Source: Candidatus Zixiibacteriota bacterium (GTDB lineage: Bacteria > Zixibacteria > MSB-5A5 > DG-27). Taken from it: a DNA stretch of 64,000 nucleotides. The translations under genes and the position numbers were made by a program. Each line of letters begins with the position of its first letter. Position 1 is the stretch's first letter. This document shows positions 54,464 through 60,705 of the stretch, piece after piece. The stretch lies in NCBI GenBank assembly GCA_030605835.1, contig JAUWHO010000027.1, positions 149,664-213,663 on the forward strand, read 5' to 3'. Below the pieces are notes generated by a model. That model searched no databases. It saw nothing but the letters and a program-made list of their open reading frames with translations, and was not told the DNA's origin.

Positions 54464-54554
54464 AACGCCACAAAACGTTAGCGGATCCAAATTTCAGGAA
54501 TTACACAGTTTCTTTCAGTAGTTCGACAGAGATCGGACAGGAGATAAAACTACC

Positions 54555-55985
54555 ATGAGGCTAATAAGACCCAACAGAACGATTCTAATCTTGGCGGGGT
54601 TTACATTTCTTTTAGGTTCTATGTTTGCTTCAGAGGGTTGGGGTTTCCAGAGCTTGCAGGCGGTTTACAATAATGCTGGCCCCGGTGGAGGGTATGACAA
54701 GCTGCTCGAACTGGATCCGGCGGTGGAATATGGCGGAGATTTGAGCATCCCTTCTGGCGTCACAGTCTGCATCCACGGTAACGGCGCCAAGATTATCGGC
54801 CTGAGCTCTCCCGACCGGGGTATTCGGGTTTACGGAAGTGGGCTTGACATCGACCACTGCGTTTTCGTTGGACGTGAGACCGGCGCTAATGGAATCTACT
54901 TCGACAGCAACTCCTACGGTCAGGTGACAAACAACACTATCGTCGATTTCAACAATGCGGGAATAAAGGTTCTATATTACAACGTGTCCCGCGGATTGGT
55001 AATCGAAAACAACATCATCACCGGGTGCTATTACGGTTTCTACGGAGAGGAAGGTTACCTCCCCACCTATTTTGCCTATAACGACATCTGGGGCAACAGC
55101 GGTCTCAATTACGCATACTACTGCCCTGGGTGAGGCGGGGGGGTTAAGCCATTTAACCCCACTCCCGGTACGGGAGAGATTCAAGAGAATCCCCTCTTCC
55201 AGGACCCCGAAGCCGAAGACTACAGGCTAACGGTGGGCTCACCCTGCATCGATGCTGGCGATCCTTCGTTCCCTTACGATCCCGACGGCACCGTGGCGGA
55301 TATGGGAGCGCTCTACTTCTACCATGTGGCGGAGGTTACCATAACTCCCAGGAACCCGCCCGTCACCATCCCGCCCTCAGGAGGGACGTTCAGATACGAA
55401 GCCAGCATCACCAACACCAGCGATGCGGCCATCGACATCTATGTCTGGACGATAGCAAACGTCCCCGAGATGGGATACTTCGGACCGCTCATCAAGCGGA
55501 GGCTGCATTTGTCCCCGCACGAGACTTTCCACCACCCCAGCGTGCCTCAGGAGGTTCCCGGGATGGCTCCGGCCGGTGTTTACCACTACATAGCCTATGT
55601 GGGCTATTTCCCCTCTGACAAGATGGACAGCTCCTCTTTTGTCTTCTTCAAGACCGGTAAATCGACCGGAGGCAGGTGGTCTGTCGGCGACTGGAGCGAG
55701 GTTCCGGAGGCAACCCTGCCGGTAGCGAGCTCGCTTCTGAGCAACTACCCCAACCCCTTCAACAGCGCCACCACCATCAACTACGAGCTTTCCTCTGGCG
55801 GGGGGGTCAAGCTGGAAGTCTTCTCTCTTCTCGGCGAGAGGGTGGCGACCTTGGTTGACACCTGGCAGGAAGCGGGATATAAATCGGTTAGCTGGGAGGC
55901 CTCCAAAGTCTCCTCCGGAGTCTATTTCTACAGGCTGACAGTTGGAGACTACAGCGAAACCAGGAGGATGATCTTCGTAAAGTAA
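54555..55985 (+). CDS. Secreted right-handed beta-helix protein with in-frame TGA (55131-55133), Ig-like domain and C-terminal sorting domain; candidate selenoprotein/readthrough protein A
   Basis: ORF track shows 54555-55133 and 55233-55985 in the same frame; the 99 nt between encode 'GGGVKPFNPTPGTGEIQENPLFQDPEAEDYRLTV' without a stop; homology with paralogue B continues on both sides. Confidence 0.75.
55162..55176 (+). promoter_or_regulatory. SECIS-like hairpin candidate A
   Basis: CTCCCG-GTA-CGGGAG; loop G lies 35 nt after the TGA. A second hairpin GGGGTTAA-GCCAT-TTAACCCC (55140-55160) sits between. Confidence 0.4.
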
Positions 55986-56011
55986 TCTCAAAAGAGCTGA
56001 AGGAATACCGG

Positions 56012-56045
56012 GCGGGGGGTTTTATTCCCCCCGCTTGCATTTTTC
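56012..56045 (+). terminator. Rho-independent terminator-like hairpin
   Basis: GCGGGGGG-TTTTATT-CCCCCCGC, then TTGCATTTTT. Confidence 0.7.
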
Positions 56046-56237
56046 AGGTCGAACTTGATTGATTTGACCGGGCCCGCCAGCGTCGCCTGGTTAAGAGGGT
56101 CTGAACCGATGCTTTTTATCTTCTCAGGATATTGATTGGAACTCAAATACGCTATCTGTGGTTGTATTGACCGAAACTGGGGACCAAAATCAAAAGAGGT
56201 CCAGAGAAACAGTCGCCTTCAGATAGGGAAAGGCAGG

Positions 56238-57647
56238 ATGGTCTTGAAGAGCAACCTTAAGTTTTCAGTTCTGTTGACTTTGATTGGGGTTGGGCTCCTC
56301 CTCGTCCAAGTGAACTCTGCCGAGGTCAGTCTGCAGGAGGTTTACAACAATGCCGGCCCCGGAGGCGGTTACGATAAACTGTTGGAGCTTGATCCCCAGG
56401 AGATATATATCGGGGATCTGTTGATTACCGGCCCTTATCATGAAGTCTGCATCCACGGGAACGGGGCGCTGGTGGTGCCCGATGGGAATTTCTATGCCAT
56501 CCTGGTTTACGAATCCCTGCTGGATGTCGACCATCTGGTCATCGAGGCCAGCATCATCGGTCTCTTTTACAGCAATCACTCCTGCGGCACGGTGAAGAAC
56601 AACACCATAGCGGGAGCTGCGGACTGTGGTATCCGCTCCACTGACATCTACATGCCTGGAGGTCTGGAGATCTTCAACAACATAATTGTGAATAACGGTT
56701 ACGGCATCTATGCCAATGAGGATTACCTTCCTCAATACATCGCCTACAACGACCTCTGGAATAACCCCGGAGGGGATTACATGATGTACTGTGGGTGAGG
56801 CGGCGATGAGCCGTTTGCTCCCACTCCCGGTACGGGAGAAATTCACGAAGACCCACTCTTCAGAGACCCCTGGTCGCAGGATTTTGGTTTGAGCCTTGGT
56901 TCCCCCTGCATCGATGCTGGAAACCCCGGCACTCCTTTCGATCCCGACGGCACCATCGCCGACATGGGCGCACTCTTCTTCAATCATCCCGTGGAAATCA
57001 CCATGGCTCCCAACAGTCCACCCATCATAATCCCGCCCGAGGGTGGGAGGTTCAGCTTCGAAGCCACCATCATCAACAGCAGTGACATGGCAGTGGAGGT
57101 CGAGGTCTGGACGATGGCAGATGTTCCCGGTGTGGGTCATTACGGACCGCTTATCAAGCGCAGCATTCATCTCGCCCCGCATCAGACCATCTACCGCCCC
57201 AATCTGTCCCAGAGTGTTCCCGGTTTTGCCCCGGGGGGCGATTACTACTATATAGGTTATGTCGGGAACTACCCCGATAAGATGGACAGCTCCTTCTTCG
57301 CCTTCTCCAAGGCCGGGGAGTCGACCGCCGGGAGGTGGTCGGTAGATAGTTGGTTCGAGGAGACTGCTGGGCTTAGTTTGCCGGTCAGAGCTTCGCTTCT
57401 GGGCAACTATCCCAATCCTTTCAACAGTTCCACCACCATCAACTACGAGCTTTCCTCCAGCGCGGAGGTCAAGCTGGAGGTCTTCACTCTTCTCGGCGAG
57501 AAGGTGGCGACCTTGGTCGACCGCTGGCAGGAGGCGGGATATAAGTCGGTCAGCTGGGAGGCCTCCGGGGTCTCCTCCGGAGCGTATTTCCACAGGTTGA
57601 CAGTTGGAGACTACAGCGAAACCAGGAGGATGATCTTGGTCAAGTAG
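56238..57647 (+). CDS. Secreted right-handed beta-helix protein with in-frame TGA (56796-56798); paralogue B
   Basis: ATG 56238 (MVLKSNLKFSVLLTLIGVGLLLVQVNSAEV); ORFs 56136-56798 and 56889-57647 share a frame; bridge encodes 'GGDEPFAPTPGTGEIHEDPLFRDPWSQDFGL'. Confidence 0.75.
56824..56838 (+). promoter_or_regulatory. SECIS-like hairpin candidate B
   Basis: CTCCCG-GTA-CGGGAG identical to copy A; loop G 32 nt after the TGA; preceded by CGGC-GATGA-GCCG (56801-56813). Confidence 0.4.
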
Positions 57648-57689
57648 GGTCAAAAGCAGGCCAAATCTTTGCGGCGGCGCAAGATGCTG

Positions 57690-57719
57690 GGGCAGGAGTT
57701 CAACTCCTGCCCTTTTTTT
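57690..57719 (+). terminator. Rho-independent terminator, resembling the intergenic repeat module
   Basis: GGGCAGGAG-TTCAA-CTCCTGCCC followed by TTTTTTT; similar to GGGGCAGGAGTTGCACTCCTGCCCC in island 1. Confidence 0.9.
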
Positions 57720-57875: not shown

Positions 57876-58760
57876 ATGCACAGGACTCTGATCTTAAAAA
57901 GGTTCAAAGAAATCGGACTAAAACCGTCTGAGGCAAAGACCTACCTCTCTCTTTTGGAAAAAGATACTCTTACCGTATCTGAAGTCTCGAGGATCGCGGG
58001 AATACCCCGTTCAAATGCTTATCAGGCCTTGGAGGAATTAATGTCTAAGGGCCTGTGCATATCCAAACCGGGTGATACAAAAAAATATAGCGCTTCTGAC
58101 CCCGCGTTACTGGTGGAGAAGTTTCATATGCAAGCGGATGAAGCAGCTGAAAGGGAGTTGCAGAATTTGACTGAGAAGGAAAAACTGATATTGGACAGAA
58201 GCAATGTTGCGAAGGAGAGTATTACGAATCTCATGAAGGAACTAAGGCCGCAATACGAAAACAGCCGGGAGAAGACCAATCCCTTAGACTACATTGAAAT
58301 CATAAAAGACCCTTATCAGATACATAAGAGATTCATGCAGCTGGGGAGGGAAGCCAAGAATGAGATATTATGTTTCGCAAAACCTCCCTATGTGGGCCCT
58401 AAGGAATGGCTCAAAGAACAATCCGAGCAAGAGCTTGAGCCGCACCAAGAGGGCCTAAGAAGTAGATGCATTTATGAGATCCCAAAGGACGAAGAAGAAA
58501 TTGAATGGTTGTTTAAGACCATAGACACAGCTGCCCGGCATGGGGAAAGGGCGCGGGTGATTAAAGAGTTGCCGATGAAAATGGCTATCTTCGATTCAAG
58601 AACTGTCATATTAGCATTGGCAGACCCGATTTCCAAGCGGACCTCCCTCACGACACAAATTGTTGAACATGCCGATCTGGCGGAAGGCTTAAAGATACTA
58701 TTCGAGACATTATGGGAACAGGCTAAAGACTACCATATTCTGAAAGATTCCGGGAGGTGA
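57876..58760 (+). CDS. TrmB-family HTH transcriptional regulator
   Basis: 'RFKEIGLKPSEAKTYLSLLEKDTLTVSEVSRIAGIPRSNAYQALEELMSKGL' winged HTH plus TrmB-like C-terminal domain. Confidence 0.9.
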   Translation: MHRTLILKRFKEIGLKPSEAKTYLSLLEKDTLTVSEVSRIAGIPRSNAYQALEELMSKGLCISKPGDTKKYSASDPALLVEKFHMQADEAAERELQNLTEKEKLILDRSNVAKESITNLMKELRPQYENSREKTNPLDYIEIIKDPYQIHKRFMQLGREAKNEILCFAKPPYVGPKEWLKEQSEQELEPHQEGLRSRCIYEIPKDEEEIEWLFKTIDTAARHGERARVIKELPMKMAIFDSRTVILALADPISKRTSLTTQIVEHADLAEGLKILFETLWEQAKDYHILKDSGR

Positions 58761-58857: not shown

Positions 58858-60705
58858 ATGAAGAACTCACTCTTTTTGACAGTTTTTTTGCTTTCGTTAT
58901 TTGTGTCAACAGCGTTCGCTCTGGAACCGGGCGATACTTTGTGGACACGCACCTACGGTGGTGCTGAGTCTGAATATGCTTACTCCGTTGAACAGACCAC
59001 CGACGGCGGGTATATCTTTTGTGGCAAGACTCATTACTACGGACAAAGTGATGACTCTGTCTACCTGGTCAAGACCGACGCTAACGGCGATCCTCTCTGG
59101 ACACGAACCTATGGCGGCTACTGGTATGAATGTGGTAATTCGGTCCAGCAGACGACCGACGGCGGATATATTATCACCGGCTGGACGTTGTCCTTCGGGC
59201 CGGGTTGGTCTGACGTTTACCTAGTGAAGACCGACGCTAGCGGCGATGTCCTCTGGACTCGCGCCCATGGTGGAGAGGACGGTGACGAGGAAGGCTGGTC
59301 AGTCCGGCAGACGACCGACGGCGGATATATCTTCGTCGGTAATGCCGATTCCTTCGGAGCGGGTGGTCAGGATGTCTACATATTCAAGACCGATGCCAAC
59401 GGCGATTCCGTGTGGGCGCGAACCTACGGTGGGAGCAGTAATGATTTTGCCCGCTGTGTCCAGCAGACCACTGATGGAGGATATATCGTCGTTGGCACTA
59501 CCCTTTCCTTCGGAGCAGGGAGTTTTGATATCTACCTGTTGAAGATCGATGCCAACGGTGATACTCTGTGGACACGCACCTACGGGGGTGAAGGCTTTGA
59601 TCATGGTAAATCGGTACTGCAGATTGCTGATGGCGGGTATATCATTGCTGGCAGCACCTCTTCGTTCGGCGCAGGTCTTAGTGATGTTTACCTCTTGAAG
59701 GTTGATGCTAACGGCAATACCCTGTGGACGCGAACCTATGGCGGGAGTGACCGTGACTATGGCAGTTCCGTTCATCAGACGGTTGACGGTGGGTATATCA
59801 TCACCGGCAACACGCTGTCCTTCGGCGCAGGCAATTACGATGTCTACGTGTTGAAGACCGATTCTAACGGCGATACCGTGTGGACGCGAACCTATGGCGG
59901 GAGTGAACGTGATTATGGCCAGTCCATCCAGCAGACCGCTGACGGTGGCTACATCGCCGCTGGCTATACCGAATCCTTCGGAGCAGGTCGTACGGATGCT
60001 TGGCTATTAAAACTTGCGGGCGAAGTGCAGCCGGATGTCTCAATTGAGATAGTCCCTGATGACCCTCCAGTGACGGTGCCTCAGGGTGGTACCTTTGGCT
60101 TTACCGGAACGCTGACAAACAACACTGACGAGCCTCAGGTTACTGACGCCTGGACTATGGCCGTCGGGCCACAAAAGGAAACTTACGGGCCTTTCAAGAT
60201 GCTGAATGACGTAGAGCTTGAACCTTTTGAGACTCGCACTGCCGACTTCAATCAGCACGTCCCCAACCTGGCACCCTTAGGATTCTACACCTACATCGCT
60301 TACTGCGGGGATTACCCCTCCACGGTGATGGATTCCTCTTACTTCCAGATAGAGGTCGTCGCGGGTGAATTCACTGAGGCAGGCCAGGGAGGTTGGGTTC
60401 TGACGGGCTCGTTCCTCGAAGGAGATTTGCTTGACCTTCCTTCTGAGTTTGCGCTTCTGAGCAATTATCCCAACCCGTTTAACGCCAGAACAGTAATCGA
60501 GTATCAGTTGCCGGTGAGTTCCAGTGTGAAGCTGGAGGTTTACAACATTCTCGGCAGCAAGGTTGCCACTTTGGTGAACGGAGAAGAGGTAGCCGGTTAC
60601 AAGTCTGTGACCTGGGATGCCTCCGAGGTCTCCTCCGGCGTCTACTTCTACAAGCTCACTGCGGCTGGTTTCTTGGATACCAATAGGATGATTCTCCTTA
60701 AATAG
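58858..60705 (+). CDS. Secreted seven-repeat (beta-propeller-like) protein with Ig-like domain and C-terminal sorting domain
   Basis: Seven ~52-aa repeats 'LWTRTYGG...DYG.SVQQT.DGGYII.G.T.SFGAG..DVYLLKTDANGDT'; CTD 'NYPNPFNARTVIEY...SSGVYFYKLTA'. Confidence 0.92.
   Translation: MKNSLFLTVFLLSLFVSTAFALEPGDTLWTRTYGGAESEYAYSVEQTTDGGYIFCGKTHYYGQSDDSVYLVKTDANGDPLWTRTYGGYWYECGNSVQQTTDGGYIITGWTLSFGPGWSDVYLVKTDASGDVLWTRAHGGEDGDEEGWSVRQTTDGGYIFVGNADSFGAGGQDVYIFKTDANGDSVWARTYGGSSNDFARCVQQTTDGGYIVVGTTLSFGAGSFDIYLLKIDANGDTLWTRTYGGEGFDHGKSVLQIADGGYIIAGSTSSFGAGLSDVYLLKVDANGNTLWTRTYGGSDRDYGSSVHQTVDGGYIITGNTLSFGAGNYDVYVLKTDSNGDTVWTRTYGGSERDYGQSIQQTADGGYIAAGYTESFGAGRTDAWLLKLAGEVQPDVSIEIVPDDPPVTVPQGGTFGFTGTLTNNTDEPQVTDAWTMAVGPQKETYGPFKMLNDVELEPFETRTADFNQHVPNLAPLGFYTYIAYCGDYPSTVMDSSYFQIEVVAGEFTEAGQGGWVLTGSFLEGDLLDLPSEFALLSNYPNPFNARTVIEYQLPVSSSVKLEVYNILGSKVATLVNGEEVAGYKSVTWDASEVSSGVYFYKLTAAGFLDTNRMILLK

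Follow-up and report, generated by a model that had tools for sequence, protein, structure and literature searches.

Predicted secreted selenoproteins built on a beta-helix in Zixibacteria, Cloacimonadota and Neomarinimicrobiota

Two neighbouring genes in the 64,000-nucleotide stretch of Zixibacteria DNA analysed here (the window) each appear to be cut in two by a TGA codon, which raises the question of whether the halves are separate or decaying genes or whether the TGA is translated and, if so, as which residue. The sequence-only reading had proposed that the open reading frames at 54555-55133 and 55233-55985 share one frame, as do those at 56136-56798 and 56889-57647, and that the in-frame TGA occupies an equivalent position in two tandem paralogues. 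Both proposals held: the TGA codons join the frames that end at 55985 and 57647 (Table 1), and when TGA was translated as a residue the two genes aligned at 61% identity, with their TGAs in a single column and no frameshift. For gene 2, ATG 56238 is a more likely start than TTG 56136; the signal peptide predicted from this ATG is MVLKSNLKFSVLLTLIGVGLLLVQVNSA. On the evidence set out below, we put the probability that both split-looking genes encode full-length secreted selenoproteins, with UGA specifying selenocysteine (Sec), at about 95%. Directly 3′ of the pair lies a gene for a TrmB-family regulator (57876-58760), and positions 58858-60705 encode a DUF5122-like beta-propeller repeat protein that has the same T9SS-type tail and no internal TGA.

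Table 1 Features of the two predicted selenoprotein genes (window coordinates)
Feature	Position	Strand	Remarks
AGGAG, Shine-Dalgarno-like, before ATG 54555	54539..54543	+	Read directly; candidate
Predicted selenoprotein gene 1	54555..55985	+	476 codons; UGA read as Sec at residue 193; domain order: signal peptide, beta-helix, Ig-like sandwich, T9SS-type C-terminal domain
Signal peptide, gene 1	54555..54641	+	MRLIRPNRTILILAGFTFLLGSMFASEGW; read directly; N-terminal helix 7-24 in model
Beta-helix domain with predicted Sec, gene 1	54642..55268	+	PF13229 Beta_helix over cut-off; AF2 pLDDT 90.7, pTM 0.89
Cys codon C190 of CPGU motif, gene 1	55122..55124	+	Partner Cys; UGA instead in four Cloacimonadota relatives
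Predicted Sec codon UGA (U193), gene 1	55131..55133	+	
Extra perfect stem-loop, gene 1, between UGA and bSECIS	55140..55160	+	GGGGUUAA-GCCAU-UUAACCCC
Predicted bSECIS upper stem-loop, gene 1	55162..55176	+	CTCCCG[GUA]CGGGAG; UGA-to-loop distance 34 nt; -8.1 kcal/mol
Ig-like beta-sandwich region, gene 1	55329..55652	+	Strands 259-366, AF2 model
T9SS type A sorting domain (Por_Secre_tail), gene 1	55746..55973	+	TIGR04183 42 bits (cut-off 23); PF18962 33.6 (cut-off 27)
Intrinsic terminator-like hairpin 3′ of gene 1	56009..56037	+	
Predicted selenoprotein gene 2, tandem paralogue	56238..57647	+	469 codons from ATG; UGA read as Sec at residue 187
Cys codon of CGU (CxU) motif, gene 2	56790..56792	+	Read directly
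Predicted Sec codon UGA, gene 2	56796..56798	+	
Predicted bSECIS upper stem-loop, gene 2	56824..56838	+	CTCCCG[GUA]CGGGAG; UGA-to-loop distance 31 nt; -8.1 kcal/mol
T9SS type A sorting domain, gene 2	57408..57638	+	TIGR04183 35.7 bits (cut-off 23)
Intrinsic terminator-like hairpin 3′ of gene 2	57689..57713	+	

As had been suggested, TGA is a normal stop in this DNA: of the 30 open frames in the window that are 250 codons or longer, not all of which are genes, 9 end with it. Across the window genome, 148 loci matched the query, in most cases by way of the C-terminal sorting domain, and an internal TGA was found only in gene 1 and gene 2; two other loci contained a TAG plus a TAA, and the rest had no internal stops. 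Chance or an assembly error as the origin of the TGA could be excluded, since the same TGA recurs in 67 other genomes.

The window genome, a Zixibacteria metagenome-assembled genome (MAG) of 2.68 Mb that is 96% complete, contains the machinery for Sec insertion that the earlier reading had proposed to look for. We found SelA (E 2.5e-140), SelB (above the family cut-off and with SelB winged-helix domains) and tRNA-SeC with anticodon tca. The selD gene adjoins selA and has an in-frame TGA of its own in the context CSGAGU-AAK, which is the usual Sec position of SelD, with the conserved N-terminus upstream of and around this TGA. The listed open reading frame for selD (L040, minus strand, just upstream of 10650) starts 3′ of the UGA and misses that N-terminus. 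The presence of SelA, SelB, tRNA-SeC and a SelD with its own UGA indicates that the organism very probably makes selenoproteins. SelA occurs in 54 of 59 genomes of the Zixibacteria class and is therefore not discriminating there. In Cloacimonadota it was detected in 29 of the 32 genomes with the family and in 33 of the 93 without it (Fisher p 3e-8). Among Neomarinimicrobiota genomes, SelA was matched in 193 of 245 overall and in 28 of the 30 that carry the family, two of these 28 matches being weak or fragmentary. No clear SelA match was found in three Cloacimonadota genomes with the family (G199, G207 and G139), in two or three from Neomarinimicrobiota (G431 and G435; G433 was weak) or in G001. 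These exceptions are MAGs of unknown completeness, apart from G001, which is 52% complete, and the absence of SelA is probably due to incomplete assemblies.

Homologues of the two genes were present in 69 genomes (8 Zixibacteria, 31 Cloacimonadota and 30 Neomarinimicrobiota). Full-length homologues among 59 relatives contained exactly one TGA each, as did all 17 full-length Zixibacteria matches in a class search of 134 genomes. A scan of GTDB genomes with a six-row alignment as the query added homologues from Neomarinimicrobiota (one) and Cloacimonadota (five), all of which had a TGA at the same place. Phylum-wide searches recovered the family in 32 Cloacimonadota genomes, 31 of which covered the site (TGA in 30), and in Neomarinimicrobiota, in which TGA was found in 30 of 30 genomes and 20 members were read directly. 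No relative among those examined had separate open reading frames in place of one gene. Reading the site in 69 members (18 Zixibacteria, 31 Cloacimonadota and 20 Neomarinimicrobiota) gave TGA in 68 and TGC, encoding Cys, in one; Trp, which had been left as an alternative in the sequence-only reading, never occurred. The Sec column is one of nine invariant columns in a 29-sequence alignment that spans two phyla. Furthermore, dN/dS after the TGA was 0.15-0.34, similar to upstream, in the pairs with unsaturated dS to which this measure is confined; by this measure, the coding region 3′ of the UGA is under purifying selection, as expected if the downstream part is translated, which had been argued from the two paralogues.

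The one Cys-containing member (L157) has the motif LCEYGC. This locus is a tip nested among UGA members in the tree and has kept the downstream motif GGUGGUCAGUUGGGCUGCC and stretch GGUCAGUUGGGCUGC; SelA also persists in its genome, G222, and the hairpin motif 3′ of the site is retained. These features suggest a recent change from Sec to Cys. A second position shows the converse replacement: in four Cloacimonadota members (L158, L159, L180 and L187) the nearby partner Cys is replaced by UGA, giving UEYGU or UDYGU where others have CEYGU, CDYGU or CEFSU. With two UGAs four codons apart, these four are probable double selenoproteins. Sec is usually recognised in comparative data by interchange between TGA and Cys, and the occurrence of such interchange at two positions argues strongly that the residue is Sec and not Trp or the product of generic readthrough.

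Published criteria for a bSECIS element call for a loop of 3-9 nt, a stem of 4-16 bp, a G within the first two loop positions, a distance of 16-37 nt from the UGA and an MFE of -7.5 or lower (PMC13188914). A hairpin of this kind, which had been named as a feature to look for, is predicted in both window genes, with a 6 bp stem and the 3-nt loop GUA in each. The selD hairpin, UCUUCCAG[GUG]CUGGAAGG, lies 33 nt after its UGA at -8.5 kcal/mol, and all three hairpins fall within all four published constraints. At the Zixibacteria sites, 18 of 18 reached -4 kcal/mol or better, compared with 10% of random TGAs in the window. Shuffles of synonymous codons rarely matched the native hairpins (single p 0.005-0.2; Fisher combined p 1.3e-11 across members that are related to one another). 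The fourth stem pair varied as TA, CG, GC, AT and TG among Zixibacteria, a pattern matched by 0 of 1,000 shuffles. Neomarinimicrobiota members have a different hairpin, 17 nt after the UGA, with double changes at pairs 20-24 (CG to AU) and 18-26 (UA to AU); its covariation score and cells were reached by 0 of 500 shuffles, and its three double-change pairs by 6 of 500. Thus, in both Zixibacteria and Neomarinimicrobiota, a hairpin after the UGA with G at the start of the loop covaries across species. A strong uninterrupted stem was missing at some Cloacimonadota and many Neomarinimicrobiota sites, where the energy limit was not always reached; these weak or interrupted stems are a limit of the evidence, not a contradiction. 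In gene 2, the place that the extra stem-loop has in gene 1 is taken by another hairpin, which encloses the UGA.

These comparative data indicate that the UGA is translated, that the residue is Sec and that the apparatus for its insertion is present. The route would be canonical, and the novelty lies in the protein family and its scaffold. SelD would provide selenophosphate, with which SelA would convert Ser-tRNA-Sec to Sec-tRNA-Sec; SelB would bind the hairpin with the GGU loop, some 31-34 nt 3′ of the UGA, and bring Sec to that codon; and the small right-handed beta-helix of the product would end in a C-P-G-U (or C-G-U) turn.

A downstream frame that is clearly translated would be explained equally well by any readthrough, for example if a near-cognate tRNA or a partial reassignment of the code led to UGA being read as Trp or some other residue. 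Such generic programmed readthrough is very improbable given that TGA is an ordinary stop elsewhere, that the site is TGA or Cys but never Trp, that the second Cys has also been swapped for UGA in four members, that the bSECIS 3′ of the UGA covaries and that the genome holds the complete Sec machinery. We give still less credence to the idea that the beta-helix and the tail are separate open reading frames, or pseudogenes decaying after a nonsense mutation. Standard gene callers would report two open reading frames per gene, as this idea predicts, but an identical TGA is found in three phyla rather than scattered stops, selection is purifying on either side of it and the downstream halves have no signal peptide. 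Terminator-like hairpins were also absent between the halves of each gene and present 3′ of each complete gene. The candidate selenoproteins of the sequence-only reading are therefore supported, as the machinery, the TGA/Cys column and the SECIS results all favour Sec over its rivals.

The general plan of the family is a signal peptide followed by a right-handed beta-helix, to which a T9SS-type tail is usually added at the C-terminus; the Neomarinimicrobiota member that we tested has a dockerin-like C-terminal domain instead. Against a PF13229 gathering threshold of 25.9, gene 1 scored 34.1, L103 30.9 and L083 29.8, and gene 2 was below it at 21.5. In the AF2 model of the Sec domain, Cys190 is at the end of a strand and Sec193 is in the short turn that follows. 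A thioredoxin fold was considered and rejected: the model is a right-handed beta-helix (pLDDT 90.7), and the nearest folds are polysaccharide lyases. A fold search with this domain alone gave no significant match, the closest being a PL6 alginate lyase and pectate lyases (E 0.005 at best), and a sequence search of solved structures gave no match below E 0.03. Searching with the full-length model returned mostly Ig-like matches (RbmA and transglutaminase), which are uninformative for the Sec domain. The combination of signal peptide, beta-helix, Ig-like sandwich and T9SS-type domain suggests that the product probably acts outside the cell.

What the Sec does there is a separate question. Cys and Sec, when coupled, usually form a selenenylsulfide; the CxxU motif of gene 1 and the CxU motif of gene 2 are plausible redox sites. 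We lean slightly towards a reversible selenenylsulfide between the two residues, serving as an extracellular redox site of the thiol/peroxide type; the Sec-Sec variants would fit a diselenide. The wider proposal, that these proteins form a new class of extracellular redox enzyme, which is exported to the surface in three phyla and whose beta-helix ends in a turn with a couple of Cys and Sec (two Sec residues in some lineages), seems to us evenly balanced. The main rival keeps Sec as real but gives it a role in binding metal, arsenic or mercury, or in binding or storing selenium, and not in redox catalysis; we regard this as possible but less probable. In its favour, the spacing from Cys to Sec varies among members (CU, CxU, CxxU and CxxxU) and one member, L090 (LDPEU), has no partner Cys, which together weaken any claim of a redox site of fixed geometry; the scaffold is also not thioredoxin-like, and several known Sec proteins handle metals (PMC13188914). 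It is disfavoured by the usual redox role of CxxU and CxU motifs, by the replacement of the partner Cys by Sec, which fits a diselenide couple, and by the lack of any metal-handling gene among the neighbours examined. The gene neighbourhoods that we examined gave no functional clue. In Neomarinimicrobiota, the members L103 and L194-L209 sit in a fixed syntenic block with a GNAT gene upstream and genes for redoxin, DsbD, PyrE, PyrF, RpoA and RplQ nearby, an arrangement that reflects vertical inheritance and no functional link.

If the redox-enzyme reading is true, this would be the first selenoprotein family on a beta-helix scaffold, and it would account for some of the selenium that these phyla need. 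Independently of function, the known selenoproteins appear to gain a family whose scaffold is listed for none of them; it is found in 69 genomes from three phyla that have been little studied, and one of these phyla is abundant in the sea. Any gene caller that takes UGA as a stop would split every such gene, so the proteins are likely to be misannotated. The family also suggests that more selenoproteins are hidden among the secreted proteins of uncultured phyla. The natural series of C...U, C...C and U...U in one family also makes the benefit of Sec over Cys testable outside the thioredoxin fold.

This secreted family of three phyla is apparently undescribed. A literature search, with preprints and Sec-tagged RefSeq records outside its scope, found no beta-helix, Zixibacteria, Marinimicrobia, Cloacimonadota or T9SS selenoprotein, and a scan of four members against NCBIfam (June 2026) gave no selenoprotein model above its cut-off. 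The nearest model was the Omp28-related selenoprotein (Omp28_seleno, NF045500, GOS_C), which scored 18.5 bits where the cut-off is 200. Like our family it is a Sec protein, and its C-terminal part weakly resembles the tail of a Neomarinimicrobiota member; however, the match is confined to that tail (219-307) and does not touch the Sec-bearing beta-helix, and its own motif is UxxC rather than CxxU. The right-handed beta-helix proteins of PF13229, NosD, PL6 and the pectate lyases share the scaffold, but no significant sequence or fold match linked the family to an enzyme of known function, and we know of none of these proteins that carries Sec. The SelD of the same genome has a Sec-UGA followed at 33 nt by a hairpin with G first in the loop, the same SECIS architecture as the window genes, but is a cytosolic selenophosphate synthetase and an unrelated protein. 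A review of May 2026 catalogued 119 prokaryotic selenoprotein families, from which the beta-helix family is absent; none of those families is a beta-helix or is entered there with a T9SS-type tail, and most of the characterised ones are thioredoxin-like (PMC13188914). With the bacterial CxxU selenoproteins in that catalogue, by contrast, the family has in common a UGA-encoded Sec, a bSECIS just downstream, a Cys three residues before the Sec and the existence of a Cys homologue (PMC13188914).
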